Source of the DNA: Megasphaera sp. NM10
GTDB lineage: Bacteria; Bacillota; Negativicutes; Veillonellales; Megasphaeraceae
Direction of reading: 5' to 3'
NCBI RefSeq assembly: GCF_000417505.1
Contig: NZ_APHY01000022.1
Coordinates: 34-64,033 of the forward strand
Length of the DNA: 64,000 nt
Each line of letters starts with the position of its first letter. Position 1 is the stretch's first letter. The position numbers and the translations under genes are program-made. Below the pieces are notes generated by a model. The model was given only the letters and a program-made list of their open reading frames with translations, searched no databases and was not told the origin of the DNA. Below are positions 12,788 to 59,128 of the stretch, piece after piece.

Positions 12788-13034
12788 AAAAAAAGCTCTC
12801 GTCCTCAAGGGACGAGAGCATAACTCACGTGGTTCCACCCTAGTTCACCGGAAAACCCGATGTACTCAAGCGCGATAACGGGGCGGCCGGGACCCCCTAC
12901 TTACTTCGGGAATCCTGCTCCAAGGCGGTAACTTGCCAGACTTTATAAAGCACTCTCACCATCGTGCCTCTCTCTGTAATAAAGGAGCTATCAAGTGTTG
13001 TCCTTTTCAAAGCATCTTACATATCTCTATGTAT
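12788..13034 (-). ncRNA. T-box riboswitch, thrS leader
   Basis: The minus-strand leader carries the invariant T-box AGGGTGGAACCACG (rc of 12827-12840) followed by the terminator stem GCTCTCGTCC and GGACGAGAGC with a T-run. Upstream is a Stem I with the distal signature AGAGAGGCACGATGGTGAGAG and a base stem GCTCC/GGAGC. In the position expected for the specifier loop the RNA reads TTACCG, so ACC (12927-12929), a Thr codon, is the candidate specifier. Uncharged tRNA-Thr would stabilise the antiterminator and allow thrS transcription. Confidence 0.92.
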
Positions 13035-23566: not shown

Positions 23567-24787
23567 TTAATCTTTAAAGCCCATCTGTTTGCGGACGAGG
23601 GGCAGTTTTTCCAGGAAGTAGTCGACTTCTTCCAGGGTATTGTAGATATAGAAGCTGGCGCGGTTCGAGGCTTCTACGCCCAAGTGAGCGCCTAAAGGCT
23701 GTGCGCAGTGGTGGCCCGAACGGATGGCGATGCCGAAGCTGTCCAGAATGGTCGCTGCGTCATGGGGATGGACGCCGTCGATGGTGAAGGTAATGACGCC
23801 GGTTTTTTCAGCCGGGTCGGTACTGCCGATGATGTGGATATGAGGGATTTTCTTCATCCCTTCCAGGCAGTGGCGGGTCAGTTCTTCTTCATGGGCTTCG
23901 ATGTTGTCCATGCCCAGGTCTTGCAAATAGTCGATGGCAGCGTGCAGAGCAACGGCACCTTCGACGTTCTGGGAACCGGCTTCGAATTTGAAGGGCAGTT
24001 CGTTAAAGGTCGTCGACTGTTCCTTGACATATTCGATCATGTCGCCGCCGAGGAGGAACGGTTCCATGCCTTCCAGGATGGCTTTCTTGCCGTAAAGGAC
24101 GCCCGTGCTGGCAGAACCGCACATCTTGTGGCCCGAGAAGGCGAAGAAGTCGCAGTCCATATCCTGGACGTCGGTCTTCATGTGCGGTGTCGACTGAGCA
24201 CCGTCGACGATGGCGATGGCTCCGACGGAATGGGCTTTGGCGACGATTTCCTTGACCGGGCGCTTCATGCCGAAGACGTTGCTGACAGCGGCAAAGGCGA
24301 CGATTTTCGTCTTGTCGTCGATTTTAGCCAGGTCTTCTTCTGTGAAGTGGCCTTCTTCGTCGAGGTACATATAATCGAGTACGGCGCCGGTCTTCTGGCA
24401 GACGCGCTGCCACGTGACCAGGTCGGAATGGTGTTCCGAAATGGGGATGACGATCTTGTCGCCTTTCTTCAGGCGCGGTTCTGCATAGCTGCGAGCTACG
24501 AGGTTCAGCGCTTCCGTCGTATTGCGGACGAAGATGACTTCTTCCGTCGAAGCGGCGTTGATGAATTTGCGGACTGCTTCGCGGGCTTCGTCGTACAATT
24601 CACCGGCTTCGATGCTGAGGACGTGGGCACCGCGATGGGGATTGCCGTTGTGGTGTTCCAAGAGGTCTACGATGGCGTGGATGACCTGGTACGGTTTCTG
24701 CGTCGTCGCAGCGTTATCAAAGTAAACGATCTGATGTCTATTATGGGCTTTAGTCAAGATGGGGAAATCTTTGCGTACATTTAGCAT
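23567..24787 (-). CDS. sufS: Cysteine desulfurase SufS
   Basis: This PLP enzyme strips sulfur from L-cysteine for Fe-S assembly. Seen here: the PLP lysine in FSGHKMCGSASTGVLYG (about residue 225), the Asp in AIVDGAQSTPH, and the persulfide-forming Cys in RSGHHCAQPLG (about 360). The ATG at 24787 (MLNVRKDFPIL) has AAAGGTG upstream and gives 406 residues; an in-frame GTG at 24796 is less likely. It overlaps the sufD end by 38 bases, which suggests translational coupling. Confidence 0.95.
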   Translation of the reverse strand: MLNVRKDFPILTKAHNRHQIVYFDNAATTQKPYQVIHAIVDLLEHHNGNPHRGAHVLSIEAGELYDEAREAVRKFINAASTEEVIFVRNTTEALNLVARSYAEPRLKKGDKIVIPISEHHSDLVTWQRVCQKTGAVLDYMYLDEEGHFTEEDLAKIDDKTKIVAFAAVSNVFGMKRPVKEIVAKAHSVGAIAIVDGAQSTPHMKTDVQDMDCDFFAFSGHKMCGSASTGVLYGKKAILEGMEPFLLGGDMIEYVKEQSTTFNELPFKFEAGSQNVEGAVALHAAIDYLQDLGMDNIEAHEEELTRHCLEGMKKIPHIHIIGSTDPAEKTGVITFTIDGVHPHDAATILDSFGIAIRSGHHCAQPLGAHLGVEASNRASFYIYNTLEEVDYFLEKLPLVRKQMGFKD

Positions 24788-25886
24788 GGCAATCACCTTT
24801 CTTGCGGCAGAACTGCATCTTTTCGCGTACAGCCTGGAGCGCTTTATTTTCTAAATCTTTATCACCCAGGGCGTCGATGACCGGGCGGATATTCGATTCG
24901 ACGATGATTAGCTGGGCGCCGGTTTCATTAAAGCCGCGGCTCATGAGGTAGAAGAGCTTGTCCTTATCGATCTGGCCGGCACTGGAAGCATGGTTCCCGA
25001 CGACGTCGTCTTCTTTGCAGAGGAGGAGCGGTACGGAAATGGAATGGACCTTCGGGCTGAGCAGGATGCACGTATCCGATTCGGAACCGACGGCTTTCTT
25101 GCCGCCGCGGAGGAAGTCGATAGTACCGCGGAAGAACTTCTTCGACGTATCGAGGAGGGCGCCTGTCGTCAAGATGTCCGTATTGGTCTTGACGCCCTGT
25201 GTGGGAACCCAGTAAGAGAAGTCGACGACCTGGTCGTCATGGCCGAGGTACATGGCCTGGCTGTTGAAATTGCTTTCATCGTGCATGAGGTCTGTCTTGT
25301 AATAGACGATAGCTGCCTTGCCGCCCAGTTCGGCACTGACGTAGTCGATCGTACTTTCTTTGCCGGCATCGCCGTAGCGGTGTTCGACGTGGCGGACGTT
25401 TTCGCCGTTGAGCTGGACCTTGCTGACTTTGACGTGAGCCCCTTCGCCGGTCTTGACGTAAGTGAGGAAGTTGACTGAGCCGTCATCGGCACTGCCGTCA
25501 AATTCCAGGTAGACCGTCAAATCGCTGTGGGCAGCGGCTTCGATTTTGAGCTGAGCCGTGAGCTGAGGCATCGCTTCGCTGAGGCTGTATTTCAAATGGA
25601 CCGACCCTTTCTGGTTTTCGCCGACGCTGACGGCGCAGCCAGAATTGGCCTGGTTCAGTGCTTTTTGGAGTTCTTCCGCATTGGAACCCTGGAAATCGCC
25701 GAGGCCCGGCATCTGATTGCCTTCATAGAAGATCACCGCTGCGTCGCCGTCGTGGCGTTCTTCCGGCGTATAAGCCGGAGCAGCCTGGGCTTTCAAGGGG
25801 TCCAATTCCAGGTGATTGACCTTCATCCAGCGGAAGGTCGGGCGCGGGAGTTGGTTGTACTGGATTTTTTCTGTCTTTACTGCCAT
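24750..25886 (-). CDS. sufD: Fe-S cluster assembly protein SufD
   Basis: SufD is a paralogue of SufB and part of the SufBC2D scaffold. The 378-residue product has the beta-helix core and the C-terminal SufBD signature (KDKLFYLMSRGFNETGAQLIIV). The final 20 residues, with CRKKGDCHAKC, run through the sufS ribosome site and start, an unusual tail. A frameshift near the end could explain it but cannot be shown from this sequence alone. Confidence 0.92.
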   Translation of the reverse strand: MAVKTEKIQYNQLPRPTFRWMKVNHLELDPLKAQAAPAYTPEERHDGDAAVIFYEGNQMPGLGDFQGSNAEELQKALNQANSGCAVSVGENQKGSVHLKYSLSEAMPQLTAQLKIEAAAHSDLTVYLEFDGSADDGSVNFLTYVKTGEGAHVKVSKVQLNGENVRHVEHRYGDAGKESTIDYVSAELGGKAAIVYYKTDLMHDESNFNSQAMYLGHDDQVVDFSYWVPTQGVKTNTDILTTGALLDTSKKFFRGTIDFLRGGKKAVGSESDTCILLSPKVHSISVPLLLCKEDDVVGNHASSAGQIDKDKLFYLMSRGFNETGAQLIIVESNIRPVIDALGDKDLENKALQAVREKMQFCRKKGDCHAKCTQRFPHLD

Positions 25887-25901
25887 GATGTTCCTCCTCC
25901 C

Positions 25902-27383
25902 CTATTTCAACGAACCTTTGAGTTCGAGATTGATCAGGTTATTCATTTCGACGGCATATTCCAAAGGCAGTGCCTTGGATACCGGTTCGACGAAGCCCCG
26001 GACGAGCATAGCCCGCGCTTCATCTTCGCTGAGGCCGCGGCTCATGAGGTAGAAGATAGCTTCGTCGGAAATACGGCCGATAGAAGCTTCGTGGCCGAGG
26101 TCGATGTTGTCGTTCTTGACGACGATAGCCGGGATCGTATCGGACTGCGACTGTTCGTCGAGCATGAGCGATTCGCAGCTGACGTTGGCCTTGGCGCCGT
26201 CAGCCGGCGGGTTGATGACGACACTGCCGCGATAGATGCAGACGCCGCCGCTCTTGCTGATGGATTTAGAATTGATGTTGCTCGTCGTGTTCGGTGCGTT
26301 GTGGACGACTTTCGAACCCGTATCGAGGTACTGGCCCTTGCCGGCAAAGGTGACGCCTGTGAATTCGCAGTGTGCGCCTTCGCCCTGGAGAATACTCATG
26401 GGGTAGAGGCACGACGTATGGGAACCGAAGGAGCCCGTGACCCAGTTGATGGTGCCGTTCTTGCCGACGATGGCCCGCTTTGTATTGAGGTTGTACATGT
26501 TCTTAGACCAGTTTTCGATGGTCGAATAGGTCAGGGATGCATCGTCGCCGATGAACAATTCGACGCAGCCTGCGTGGAGGTTGGCGATATTGTATTTCGG
26601 AGCCGAACAGCCTTCGATGAAGTGGACTTTCGCTCCCTTTTCGACGATGATCATCGTGTGTTCAAACTGGCCTGCGCCCGGCGCATTGAGGCGGAAATAA
26701 CTCTGCAGCGGGATGGAGACGTCGACACCGGCCGGGACGTAGACGAAGGAGCCACCGGACCAGACAGCACCGTGCAGGGCGGCGAACTTGTGGTCCGTCG
26801 GCGGGACGAGCTTCATGAAATGAGCCTTGACGATGTCTTCATATTTTTCCAGGGCCGTATCGAAGTCGGTATAGACGACGCCCTGCTGGACCAGTTCGTC
26901 CTGGATGCTGTGGTAGACGACTTCCGAGTCGTACTGGGCACCGACGCCGGCGAGGGACGTCTTTTCGGCTTCCGGGATACCCAGGCGGTCGAAGGTGTCT
27001 TTGATGTCATCGGGGACGTCGTTCCAGTCAGCTTTCATCTGAGCGTTCGGGCGGACATAAGTGACGATGTTGTCCATGTCGAGTTCGCTGATGTCCGGGC
27101 CCCAGTCGGGATATTCCATGTGGTTGAAGATATCCAGCGATTTGAGGCGGAAATCGAGCATCCACTTCGGTTCGTGTTTCTTTTCCGAAATTTCACGGAC
27201 GATGTCTTCCGTCAGGCCGGCATCGGTCTTATAGGAATAGGTAAAATCTTTCTTAAAGTTATACATGTTGCCGAAGTCGGCGAAGGTATCGATCTTCTGG
27301 CGTTCTTCAGCGATTTTTTCTTCTTTCTGTTCGACCAGTTTTTCTTTTTCCTGATCGACCAGCTTTTCTTTATTATCAGCCAT
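25902..27383 (-). CDS. sufB: Fe-S cluster assembly protein SufB
   Basis: SufB is the scaffold subunit on which nascent clusters form. The 493-residue length is typical. Motifs include SGGSFVYVPAGVDVSIPLQS, EHTMIIVEKGAKVHFIEGCS and the C-terminal ISDEAIFYLMSRGLSEDEAR. The N-terminus is unusually charged (about 30 residues rich in Lys/Glu). It starts after AGGAGG, 14 bases after sufC. Confidence 0.96.
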   Translation of the reverse strand: MADNKEKLVDQEKEKLVEQKEEKIAEERQKIDTFADFGNMYNFKKDFTYSYKTDAGLTEDIVREISEKKHEPKWMLDFRLKSLDIFNHMEYPDWGPDISELDMDNIVTYVRPNAQMKADWNDVPDDIKDTFDRLGIPEAEKTSLAGVGAQYDSEVVYHSIQDELVQQGVVYTDFDTALEKYEDIVKAHFMKLVPPTDHKFAALHGAVWSGGSFVYVPAGVDVSIPLQSYFRLNAPGAGQFEHTMIIVEKGAKVHFIEGCSAPKYNIANLHAGCVELFIGDDASLTYSTIENWSKNMYNLNTKRAIVGKNGTINWVTGSFGSHTSCLYPMSILQGEGAHCEFTGVTFAGKGQYLDTGSKVVHNAPNTTSNINSKSISKSGGVCIYRGSVVINPPADGAKANVSCESLMLDEQSQSDTIPAIVVKNDNIDLGHEASIGRISDEAIFYLMSRGLSEDEARAMLVRGFVEPVSKALPLEYAVEMNNLINLELKGSLK

Positions 27384-27397
27384 AGCTGTACCTCCTA

Positions 27398-28135
27398 CTA
27401 TCCTTTGTATGCGTCGTAGCCGTTGGCTTCAATAGCCTGGATGAGCGATGCATCGCCGGTCTTGACGATCTTGCCGTCGATGAGGATGTGGACGAAATCC
27501 GGTTTCAAGTGCTGCAAGATTTCACTGTGGTGGGTAATGACCAGGATGGAATTGTTTTCATTGTGGTACTTGGATACCGTGTCCGATACGATGCGGACGG
27601 CATCGACGTCGAGGCCCGAGTCGATTTCGTCGAGCATGGTCAGTTTCGGTTCGAGCATGCACATCTGGAGGATTTCCGTCTTTTTCCGTTCGCCGCCGGA
27701 GAAGCCGTCATTGACATAGCGTTCAGCATAAGACTTATCCATCTTCAGCTGTTCCATCTGGGCGTGGAGCTTCTTACGGAAAGGCATGATGCGCTGCTGC
27801 TGACCCGATACGGTGCTCTTGGCGTTGCGGATGAAGTTTTCAACGGAAATGCCCTGGACGGCGATAGGCTGCTGGAAGGCCATGAAGATACCTGCTTTGG
27901 CGCGTTCATTGACGGGAGCTTCCGTAATATCTTTGCCTTCAAAGAAGATCTTGCCGGCTATGACGACGTATTTCGGGTTGCCCATGATGGCATTGAACAG
28001 CGTCGATTTGCCGGCGCCGTTGGAACCCATGATGACATGTGTTTCGCCTGTGTTGATCGTCAGGTCGAGGCCTTTGAGGATTTCTTTGCCTTCGACAGCG
28101 ATGTGCAAGCCTTCTACTCTTAATAATTCACTCAT
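27398..28135 (-). CDS. sufC: Fe-S assembly ATPase SufC
   Basis: SufC is the ABC-type ATPase that drives SufB/SufD rearrangement. Motifs: Walker A GSNGAGKSTLF, Q-loop FMAFQQP, signature FSGGERKKTEI, Walker B LTMLDEIDSGLD. The ATG at 28135 follows GTAGGAG and gives 245 residues (MSELLRVEGLH); an in-frame upstream extension would reach back into the promoter region. It is the first gene of the operon. Confidence 0.96.
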   Translation of the reverse strand: MSELLRVEGLHIAVEGKEILKGLDLTINTGETHVIMGSNGAGKSTLFNAIMGNPKYVVIAGKIFFEGKDITEAPVNERAKAGIFMAFQQPIAVQGISVENFIRNAKSTVSGQQQRIMPFRKKLHAQMEQLKMDKSYAERYVNDGFSGGERKKTEILQMCMLEPKLTMLDEIDSGLDVDAVRIVSDTVSKYHNENNSILVITHHSEILQHLKPDFVHILIDGKIVKTGDASLIQAIEANGYDAYKG

Positions 28136-28213: not shown

Positions 28214-28279
28214 AAGTGTACCATTTAGATACACTTACTGGACTGTTCTTAATGTACTCTATAAACGCCACAAAGTCAA
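28214..28279 (-). promoter_or_regulatory. suf operon promoter with palindromic site
   Basis: TTGACT (28274-28279) and TACATT (28251-28256) are 17 bp apart. Just downstream is a perfect inverted repeat, AAGTGTA and TACACTT with a 9-bp gap (28214-28236), placed where a repressor would block transcription. The regulator is unknown; an iron- or cluster-sensing factor is plausible. Confidence 0.6.
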
Positions 28280-28300: not shown

Positions 28301-28507
28301 TTATTTTTTATCAAATTTATTATGCATCCACCGGGCCCGGGCCTTGCTATGCATCCATACCTGCATGACACAGACGGCGACAGCTGCCGCCAGCAGGCCT
28401 AGAAGACCTGCCGACGGGCCGTCGACGACGATGGCATAGAGTAAATAGGCATAGACGACGATCCATAAGAAGACCTTGAGCTTCATGAGCTTGGTCAGCT
28501 TATTCAC
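28301..28507 (-). CDS. Small two-helix membrane protein coupled to the SCIFF maturase
   Basis: The frame from the GTG at 28507 gives 68 residues; an internal ATG at 28486 would give 61. Two membrane segments are visible (FLWIVVYAYLLYAIVV and GLLGLLAAAVAVCVMQVWM), then a basic tail (HSKARARWMHNKFDKK). The GTG overlaps the maturase stop by 8 bases, so translation is probably coupled. I recognise no family. Position alone suggests a part in the SCIFF peptide system; it could also be an unrelated small protein using the transcript. Confidence 0.6.
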   Translation of the reverse strand: MNKLTKLMKLKVFLWIVVYAYLLYAIVVDGPSAGLLGLLAAAVAVCVMQVWMHSKARARWMHNKFDKK

Positions 28508-29933
28508 AGGCGCCGCATCCTTCACAATTTTCTTCCGGGTCCCCGAAGAGGCGGGCTTTCTGGCCGCGCATAGCCAGGACGGCCTGAATGTACATGGCAC
28601 ATTCGATGCGCTTCTTCTGGATCTTGCAGCTCAGTTCATACGGCGTCTGGATGTTGCCGCCGTACTTGATGTTATTGGCATGGCAGCCGCCGCTGCAGAA
28701 GAACTTGGCCCAGCAGTCGCAGCAGATGGGCTTGTTGAGGACGTGCATGTCGCGGAAGAGCGGCGGCAGTTCCGTATTGGTCACGCCGTCATAGACGTTG
28801 CCGATGACATAGTCGTCCTGGCCGACGAACTGATGACAGGGATAGATGTCGCCGTTGGGGACGACGCACATGTATTCATGGCCGGCACCACAGCCGCGCA
28901 GGCGCTTGGCGATGCAGGGACCGCGATAGAGGTCCATGATGAAGTGGTAATAAATGAAGGGCCGGCCTTCATCCATGCGTTTCAGGTAGAAATCGGCCAG
29001 GCGGTCGTATTCTTCATAAATGCGGGGCAAGTCATCATCGGTGATGGCATAGGACAAGTCGTCGCCGACGACGGGTTCCATGGACAGGCCTTCAAAGCCG
29101 AGGTCAGCCATGTGTTCTACGTCTTTGGTGAAATCGAGATTGTATTTTGTATACGTCCCGCGGACGTAATATTCTTCACCGTTGCGGTGTTTCGCCGCAT
29201 AGACCTGATTGTCGGCACAGGTCTTGTACGAGCCGTGACCGCCGGCATCGGGACGCATGCGGTCGTGTACTTCCGGACGACCGTCGAGGCTCAGGATGAG
29301 GCTGATGTGATTATCCGTCAAATACTTGACCTTGGCCGGGTCGAGGAGCATGCCGTTCGTCGTCAGGGACAGCTTGAATACTTTATCGTGGATCTTTTCC
29401 TGTTCCCGGATGTACTCGATGGTCTGCTTGACGACGCCGAAGTTCATCAGCGGTTCGCCGCCGAAGAAGTCGATTTCGCAGTGCTGGCGTTTGCCTTCGG
29501 TGCTCTTGATGAGCAGGTCGACAGCGTGTTTGGCTACGTCGAAGCTCATGAGTTCCCGCTTGTGCGTATCGTAATCGCCCTGGGAGGCAAAGCAGTATTG
29601 ACAGCGCAGGTTGCAATCGTGGGCAATGTTCAGGCAGAGCGATTTGATGACCGGTTCTTCTTCGGCGACGACCTTGAAGTTTTCCGTCATCGGTGCAAAG
29701 AGCATTTCCTTTTCGATGAGCTCATCCAGTTCGCCCAGGGTTTCGTCCAAATCCTTTTTATCATACGTCCCGGCAAAGGCCTGATAGACAGCGTCTTTAT
29801 TGGTACCGTCATAGACGTCGAGTACATCGTAGGTCATCTTGTCGATGACGTTGATGATGCCGCTGTTGACGTCGAGGAGCATGTACGTCCCGTTCTGACA
29901 GTATTTATGAATCATTGGTTTAATTTCAGCCAT
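28500..29933 (-). CDS. SCIFF peptide maturase, radical SAM/SPASM thioether synthase
   Basis: Enzymes of this group form Cys-to-residue thioether links in SCIFF peptides (ranthipeptides, the CteB type). The protein has a leader-binding N-terminal domain (about 1-95), the radical SAM cluster motif CNLRCQYC (about residue 105), and a C-terminal SPASM/twitch region with paired cysteines (CGAGHEYMCVVPNGDIYPC, CCDCWAKFFCSGGCHANN) ending CEGCGACE. The ATG at 29933 follows GGAGG; an upstream ATG at 29951 overlaps that site. The precursor gene lies 70 bases upstream, with a weak hairpin between. Confidence 0.93.
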   Translation of the reverse strand: MAEIKPMIHKYCQNGTYMLLDVNSGIINVIDKMTYDVLDVYDGTNKDAVYQAFAGTYDKKDLDETLGELDELIEKEMLFAPMTENFKVVAEEEPVIKSLCLNIAHDCNLRCQYCFASQGDYDTHKRELMSFDVAKHAVDLLIKSTEGKRQHCEIDFFGGEPLMNFGVVKQTIEYIREQEKIHDKVFKLSLTTNGMLLDPAKVKYLTDNHISLILSLDGRPEVHDRMRPDAGGHGSYKTCADNQVYAAKHRNGEEYYVRGTYTKYNLDFTKDVEHMADLGFEGLSMEPVVGDDLSYAITDDDLPRIYEEYDRLADFYLKRMDEGRPFIYYHFIMDLYRGPCIAKRLRGCGAGHEYMCVVPNGDIYPCHQFVGQDDYVIGNVYDGVTNTELPPLFRDMHVLNKPICCDCWAKFFCSGGCHANNIKYGGNIQTPYELSCKIQKKRIECAMYIQAVLAMRGQKARLFGDPEENCEGCGACE

Positions 29934-29954
29934 GAATAATGTTTCCTCCATACA

Positions 29955-29992
29955 AAAAGAAGGGGGTGCCGCGTGAGCGACGCCCCTTTTCC
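29955..29992 (-). terminator. Imperfect hairpin between SCIFF precursor and maturase
   Basis: A 10-bp stem with one mismatch (GGGGCGTCGC and GCGGCACCCC) is followed by TTCTTTTT. It probably ends part of the transcripts so that precursor outnumbers enzyme. Confidence 0.5.
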
Positions 29993-30002
29993 TTCACGTA
30001 AC

Positions 30003-30143
30003 TTATTTTGTGCAGATCTGATTGCCAACAGTGCAAGAAGTTTTGCAAGCGGACTGGCAGGACGTCTGGCATTCGCTGCAGCCAGCGTGCTGTGCCGTCT
30101 TCTGGATCGATTCTGTGTTGATTGTAATGATGTGTTTTGCCAT
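30003..30143 (-). CDS. SCIFF ranthipeptide precursor (six cysteines in forty-five residues)
   Basis: This 46-residue peptide begins MAKHIITINTESIQ. Its core has six cysteines at 22, 25, 29, 33, 37 and 44, within CSECQTSCQSACKTSC, the hallmark of SCIFF peptides found across Clostridia. The start follows GAGGTG. The neighbouring radical SAM maturase should install thioether crosslinks. The biological role of SCIFF products is not settled; quorum-like signalling has been proposed for some ranthipeptides. A promoter (TTGTAG, 17 bp, TAAAAT) lies about 40 bp upstream. Confidence 0.93.
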   Translation of the reverse strand: MAKHIITINTESIQKTAQHAGCSECQTSCQSACKTSCTVGNQICTK

Positions 30144-30214
30144 GATATTCACCTCGCTATCAATGATTATTCCTTATTTTACCACATTCTCGGTGATTCT
30201 ACAATATGACAGGA

Positions 30215-30609
30215 TTACAAGAGTTTGAAGCCTTCAAAGAAGAAATTCTTGCCCATGCTGATGACGATGGACCGTTCATCGAATACGTCATTGGTATCGA
30301 AGAATACGTCGAAGCCTTTCTTATAAGTAGCATAAATCGAAGTGATGCGACTTAAATAACTGCGGATTTCCTCGCTGTCACTTCCGGTTCGCCGTCAGAG
30401 CGCCATTTCTTGTTCTTGAAATTCGCAATCAGCGGCGCATGAGCGATGACACGGGAGCGGTGCGCCAAAACCCAGTTCCAAACTTTTTCACCGTACTGCT
30501 GTGCTTCCTCTTCATGACCTTCTTCGAGGCCATCGAGGGTAAACAGGACAGGCCGGCCTTCGTACATGATTTCATCCATGTAACTGCCTTTGACATATTT
30601 TAAATTCAC
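30215..30609 (-). CDS. DUF2262-like hypothetical protein (frameshifted)
   Basis: The N-terminal frame from the GTG at 30609 (after AGGGGGTG) runs to DGEPEVTA and then stops early. One base over it continues EEIRSYLSRITSIYATYKKG and FDVFFDTNDVFDERSIVISM to a stop at 30215. The break is at about 30372, and adding one C (GCC GAG) gives 131 residues. The C-terminal half resembles DUF2262 (an FYYDDGDLFWGH-like region). It lies between rubredoxin and the SCIFF peptide with its own promoter. Function unknown. Confidence 0.6.
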
Positions 30610-50807: not shown

Positions 50808-50945
50808 AAAAGAAAAGAGGCGCTGCCTCCAAGCTGCGCCTCAGTCATAATGATATCTTTCAGGAATAGCCTGTAGGAATTGGCACCTTACCTTAGGCAG
50901 GTTGCCGCAGCGTCATCGGGCCCGTCCCTCAGCTGCTCTCGATAT
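50808..50945 (-). ncRNA. SAM-I riboswitch (S-box) with terminator
   Basis: The minus strand shows the S-box core in order: GAGAGCAGCTGAGGGAC, GGCCCGATGA, CGGCAACC, AAGGTGCCAATTCC, and the closing GAAAGATAT, with P1 formed by ATATC and GATAT (50941-50945, 50852-50856). A terminator stem GAGGCGC with GCGCCTC (50817-50842) and a T-rich tail follow. Bound SAM would favour termination before brnQ. Confidence 0.93.
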
Positions 50946-50974
50946 AACTTATGAAATTTGTCTGTATTGGTGTT

Positions 50975-58936: not shown

Positions 58937-58961
58937 GTAAAAAGCCTACGTTTACAAGAAT

Positions 58962-59055
58962 TCGTCCCGGTCTTTCGATCCAAGCGATATGCTATGAAAT
59001 TATGATAATAGTTGACCCGGATTTTTTACGGTACGGATCCCAAAAGATTCCGTCC
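58962..59055 (-). ncRNA. Tandem pan-motif RNA upstream of the panB operon
   Basis: Two 26-nt hairpins (59030-59055 and 58962-58987) share one architecture: an outer stem of 2-3 bp, a bulged A on the 3' side, exactly 5 bp, a bulged A on the 5' side, 2 bp, then the loop (TTTTGG or GAAA). Hairpins with two bulged adenosines, often in tandem ahead of panB/C/D, define the candidate pan regulatory RNA. An outer pairing (GATTCGG with CCGGGTC) can enclose the first hairpin. The ligand is not established. Confidence 0.8.
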
Positions 59056-59128
59056 AACCCGAATCACATGTACAGGATACTACATTTGTGAAACTTTTAC
59101 CAATAACTTTTAAGAATAGAGTATGATA

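Follow-up and report, generated by a model that had tools for sequence, protein, structure and literature searches.

The closest described relatives of the locus reported here are the SCIFF systems, in which the precursor ScfA stands directly before its maturase ScfB, as in the CteA/CteB system of Clostridium thermocellum. In the accessible parts of the respective papers, a SCIFF precursor is expected about 500 bp or less from the maturase (PMC5300114), and CteA and Tte1186a are described with a fourth Cys and Thr acceptors at +2 and +5 (PMC8326336). Accessible text also places ranthipeptides in Bacillota_C (PMC13289728) and a radical-SAM sactipeptide-like cluster in Veillonella (PMC6284299). 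Our literature search on SCIFF in Negativicutes gave no match.

We have analysed a stretch of 64,000 nucleotides (the window) from contig NZ_APHY01000022.1 of Megasphaera sp. NM10. Its SCIFF locus resembles the CteA/CteB system in that the precursor lies directly before the maturase, and in that the fourth Cys of ScfA (C33) is followed by T35 (+2) and T38 (+5), the arrangement given in the available part of PMC8326336. It differs in what comes after scfB: in the Megasphaera family (f1), this is an overlapping gene for a small membrane protein, and not a SecDF-like gene as in Clostridia or a HypF gene as in many Negativicutes. The features of the locus are collected in Table 1.

Table 1. Features of the SCIFF locus and its flanks in the window
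Feature	Position	Strand	Basis or remark
Promoter-like site TTGTAG-17-TAAAAT	30176..30204	-	TG precedes the second hexamer; 32 nt 5′ of the scfA ATG
DUF2262-like gene, upstream neighbour, frameshifted here	30215..30609	-	Adjacency control
scfA, SCIFF precursor of 46 aa, six Cys	30003..30143	-	TIGR03973, 76 bits (cut-off 50); PF13165, 79.1 bits (cut-off 27)
Terminator-like hairpin and T-rich tail in the scfA–scfB gap	29952..29986 (stem-loop 29963–29986)	-	Folding
scfB, radical SAM/SPASM SCIFF maturase of 477 aa	28500..29933	-	TIGR03974, 581.7 bits (cut-off 425)
Small two-helix membrane protein of 68 aa with basic tail	28301..28507	-	Most likely start GTG; without Pfam or NCBIfam match
Promoter-like site TTGACT-17-TACATT of the downstream SUF operon	28251..28279	-	Similar TTGACTTT sequence 5′ of suf in relatives, by eye
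sufC, sufB, sufD, sufS, downstream neighbours	23567..28135	-	Probably a separate unit

The Precursor–Maturase Pair

An earlier note on this DNA had recognised a SCIFF precursor and its maturase, and the assignment holds, both proteins scoring over the curated cut-offs of their families. The six cysteines of ScfA occupy positions 22, 25, 29, 33, 37 and 44. The competing exception model NF040492 gives ScfB a score of 524, below its own cut-off of 855, and this maturase is the one copy in the genome above the TIGR03974 cut-off. ScfB can be aligned across 446 residues with PDB entry 5wgg, which we take to be CteB, with the CxxxCxxC motif and the C-terminal cysteines aligned. The 69-nt gap between scfA and scfB lies within the spacing that defines SCIFF systems. 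By its family, ScfB would install Cys-to-Thr thioether crosslinks on ScfA, and a non-alpha thioether crosslink is what family membership leads one to expect there.

Of the 61 genomes of the order, 58 have the maturase, as do 191 of the 200 sampled from the class; the precursor was found near it at 109 of 110 loci, the exception being L202, where the available sequence ends only 234 bases from the maturase. Since the pair is common in both order and class, and since ranthipeptides and the Veillonella cluster are in print, we regard the SCIFF locus in itself as ordinary. Veillonella parvula, from the sister family, has scfA and scfB (L199) followed by a HypF-like ORF, with no small gene there; the sactipeptide-like cluster, as presented in the accessible part of PMC6284299, is very likely this same SCIFF pair. 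Three genomes of the class (G125, G144 and G359) have two maturase matches each, at E values up to 1e-100.

Surroundings of the Locus

Upstream, the window contains the DUF2262-like gene followed by genes for a rubredoxin and a DUF3298 protein, uvrC and uvrA; downstream lies the SUF operon. No exporter or protease is found among the identified neighbours of the SCIFF locus, as had been noted before. The nearest named loci include those of Megasphaera massiliensis, M. cerevisiae and Anaeroglobus. The DUF2262-like gene has intact copies among its f1 relatives, and its frameshift in Megasphaera sp. NM10 may be a real mutation or an error of the draft assembly.

Between 28150 and 28290 (minus strand), the promoter-like site 5′ of sufC is followed by a near-palindrome, AGTGTA...TACACT. 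By eye, TTGACTTT and related elements recur 5′ of the suf genes in relatives; together with the near-palindrome, they are perhaps an operator of an Fe-S regulator. The window also has three Rfam matches over the gathering score: a T-box leader (12805–13019), a SAM riboswitch (50850–50948) and a pan motif (58958–59056, minus strand).

A Hairpin between scfA and scfB

In the window, the hairpin in the scfA–scfB gap has a z-score of -2.34, with 2 of 200 shuffles folding equally well. A hairpin with a T-rich tail occupies this gap in all 16 f1 genomes, and a terminator-like hairpin is present in 108 of the 109 Negativicute and Clostridial loci with a precursor. For 98 of these 108, none of 20 mononucleotide shuffles scored as high; the other 10 were matched by at least one of 20. 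The leaky hairpin of the earlier note is thus supported, as a general feature of SCIFF operons. The sequence of the stem varies among lineages. RNAalifold, run on a MAFFT alignment of the f1 hairpins, did not recover the stem, and no covariation was seen; the stem was missed because two stem types misalign in that alignment, and conservation was judged by single folds and the pattern test in place of RNAalifold. We found no description of the scfA–scfB hairpin in the literature, a weak negative, most subscription papers being outside the search.

Most transcripts would end at the hairpin or be stabilised by it, resulting in an excess of precursor, and read-through past it would provide the maturase. 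Instead of acting as an attenuator, the hairpin could protect the scfA transcript, as an element of RNA processing or mRNA stabilisation, which we consider possible but doubtful. Its start only a few bases 3′ of the scfA stop in many loci would suit such a protective element, and attenuation and stabilisation alike would lead to precursor excess, but the T-rich tail behind the hairpin throughout f1 is as termination predicts. The occurrence of the hairpin at nearly all loci suggests that a dosage control favouring precursor over enzyme is general to SCIFF.

A Probable Third Operon Gene in the Megasphaera Family

The small gene overlaps scfB by 8 nt in the window. The earlier note had the maturase stop overlapping the GTG of the small gene; the overlap is real, but the GTG precedes the stop, which overlaps codons 2–3. 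An alternative start at 28525, giving 74 aa, is also open. With the start set by alignment, 10 of the 16 f1 genomes have an overlap of exactly 8 nt and 12 have an overlap of some length, while in the remaining four the small gene starts 4, 10, 24 and 24 nt after the scfB stop.

A promoter-like site, TTGTNG-N17-TANAAT, lies 30–32 nt 5′ of the scfA ATG in all 16 f1 genomes; the pattern was written after inspection of the sequences and is matched by 0.4% of dinucleotide shuffles. At the other end, a terminator-like hairpin 3′ of the small gene passes the test in 5 of the 16. The promoter, the overlap and these terminators support co-transcription in f1, and with it the earlier description of the small gene as coupled. 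As the promoter and the gap hairpin are common to all 16 genomes, the small gene most likely stands third in the operon and, judged from sequence, scfA, scfB and the small gene most likely form one transcription unit in f1. Translation past the overlap would yield the small protein at a low level. Where the small gene has no terminator behind it, which is the case in this window, read-through into suf is possible.

With a dN/dS ratio of 0.09 to 0.71, below 1 in every listed pair, the small gene is under purifying selection. An AlphaFold model has two long helices (residues 3–29 and 33–54) followed by a short helix in the basic tail, at a modest mean pLDDT of 67.9; at that confidence, it agrees with the two-helix, basic-tailed membrane protein described earlier. 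The protein is accordingly predicted, from the model, to be a membrane hairpin with a basic tail, and would reside in the membrane in that form. It has no Pfam match and no NCBIfam match at E values up to 1, and a literature search on a small membrane protein in Megasphaera gave no match. Membership of a phage protein family was rejected, with nothing beyond one weak PHROG match, as was kinship with a solved structure: four weak hits (best E value 0.0078) were taken as chance.

Distribution of the Small-Protein Family

Searched with a single f1 query, the protein was matched in 16 of the 61 genomes of the order, all of them f1. A profile of these 16 sequences found weak matches in other genomes of the order; aligned separately, the non-f1 hits have a common core, Y..Y.I...G, and hhalign relates the f1 proteins to these order relatives with a probability of 98% (E value 2.7e-13). 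The joint profile detects the small family in 52 of the order's 61 genomes and in 0 of the 319 genomes from the rest of the class. Matches outside the profile members include G003 (8.6e-13) and G004, G009–G011 and others, with E values of about 1e-10 to 1e-12. In a sample of 299 genomes from the phylum, the family is matched in three f1 genomes and otherwise by no more than two weak hits, both outside the class; these fall within long frames and were taken for chance matches.

Within the order, 50 genomes have both the maturase and the small protein, eight the maturase alone, two the small protein alone and one neither. Indeed, G002, a single contig estimated at 99% completeness, has the small protein and lacks both maturase and precursor, and in eight genomes SCIFF is present and the small protein was not detected. 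One f1 genome (G022, 82% complete) is without scfA, scfB, the small gene and the DUF2262-like gene upstream, most simply explained by an assembly gap.

Linkage of the Small Gene to scfB

The small gene follows scfB directly in all 16 f1 genomes that have the maturase, and was seen in 10 of 10 Megasphaera-type loci of our neighbour survey. In none of the 36 non-f1 genomes of the order that have the homologue does it adjoin the maturase: 34 of them have a maturase, and there the best small-protein match lies on a different contig or at a distance of over 100 kb; in the remaining two, no maturase was matched. By eye, in 20 genomes, the neighbours of the homologue include PurL-, SucD- and TerC-like genes in family f2, a peroxiredoxin gene in f3 and an exonuclease III gene in f4; the SucD and exonuclease III neighbours were confirmed in one genome each. 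Because it is elsewhere a single gene beside unrelated genes, and survives without SCIFF, the basic function of the small protein is most likely independent of SCIFF.

The earlier note had proposed this protein as a candidate partner of SCIFF, with adjacency of its gene to the maturase across Negativicutes and Clostridia as the check and its presence near unrelated genes in most relatives as evidence to the contrary. As a general role, the proposal does not stand: of the 52 genomes where a homologue occurs, 36 have it away from any maturase, so that most relatives do have it near unrelated genes at the level of the order, and adjacency is limited to f1 (16/16, against 0/36 elsewhere in the order, the protein itself occurring in 0/319 genomes of the rest of the class). 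Within f1, the contrary evidence does not materialise, the gene being beside scfB throughout.

Adjacency in f1 has itself to be read against the other neighbours. The DUF2262-like gene, which is unrelated, adjoins the SCIFF locus in 16 of 16 f1 genomes and is unlinked in the four f3 genomes that have it (4/4); suf genes lie downstream of the small gene in 14 of the 16. With such neighbours equally or nearly as constant, family-wide adjacency is weak evidence of a functional link, and the gene overlap is the stronger part of the linkage evidence. The link could then be nothing but the local synteny of a young family, with SCIFF transcripts serving as a convenient source of low-level expression unrelated to the peptide or to suf. 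The constancy of these flanking genes suits such an origin, and so does the faster divergence of the small protein, which has 26–93% identity to the window's sequence across f1 when the maturase has 77–99%; we nevertheless think it quite improbable, the overlap being retained in 12 of 16 genomes, beyond what simple synteny requires.

What Follows scfB in Other Lineages

In 43 of 48 loci outside Negativicutes, a SecD signature occurs 3′ of scfB; three more have a maturase frame that is broken. A TIGR04086-like ORF is present in 22 of the 48, situated just 5′ of scfA where inspected. In non-f1 Negativicutes, scfB is most often followed by a HypF-like ORF (20/30 and 18/22), by signature counts that class L197 and L202 as “other” though HypF-like starts are visible there. 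The SecDF and HypF successors were confirmed in one case each. Most of the f2 and f3 loci seen have, 3′ of scfB, a gene for a secreted-looking protein of some 150 aa that carries a conserved VGGIG-type motif (e.g., L064, 6944–7405); one example was without a Pfam match.

TIGR04086 and the small protein are both small membrane proteins encoded beside SCIFF, but the former is larger and its gene is upstream of scfA. We found no profile similarity between them (hhalign probability 1.2%) and rejected a relationship. Of 200 genomes of the class, 51 have a TIGR04086 match, in 48 of them over the cut-off, and none of the 51 is from this order; a literature search on TIGR04086 gave no match.

Discussion

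We favour, with some reserve, the reading that the window holds a standard SCIFF operon and that a membrane protein found throughout the order, with a function of its own, has been captured in the Megasphaera family, where its gene would have been appended to scfA–scfB. Some of the evidence sits less well with capture. In the second genus of f1 (two genomes), the small gene still adjoins scfB when the suf genes are gone from downstream, which fits selection for the link. A terminator follows the small gene in only a minority of f1 genomes. Furthermore, on the f1 branch, an Asn present in every aligned relative has been lost and a DGPS-type loop gained, changes that could reflect a new role of the small protein.

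An alternative is that, in the Megasphaera family, the small protein has turned into a dedicated partner of SCIFF, for instance by docking maturase or modified peptide to the membrane, or by assisting export. The translational overlap and shared transcription unit, the link's persistence across two genera even without downstream suf, and the f1-specific sequence signature argue for a partner, as does the finding that membrane genes of the SecDF and TIGR04086 kinds also flank SCIFF in Clostridia. We hold a dedicated partner to be rather unlikely: a closed genome has the homologue without SCIFF, the gene is unlinked in all other genomes of the order that carry it and undetected in eight that have SCIFF, the neighbour on the other side is just as constant, and the profiles reveal no homology to TIGR04086.

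Capture of an independent membrane protein remains our preferred account, and family-wide adjacency is not to be read as a functional link. A further step, which we put forward tentatively and think unlikely, is that in the ancestor of the family the free-standing protein was captured through the stop–start overlap and became the membrane partner of SCIFF, in the place held in Clostridia by SecDF and TIGR04086 proteins. What the analysis offers is a defined SCIFF operon with a third gene, in a culturable genus. Nearly all Clostridia and Negativicutes have SCIFF peptides; if the small protein did become such a partner, SCIFF would be a membrane-linked signal peptide in Clostridia and in the Megasphaera family, with different partners in each.
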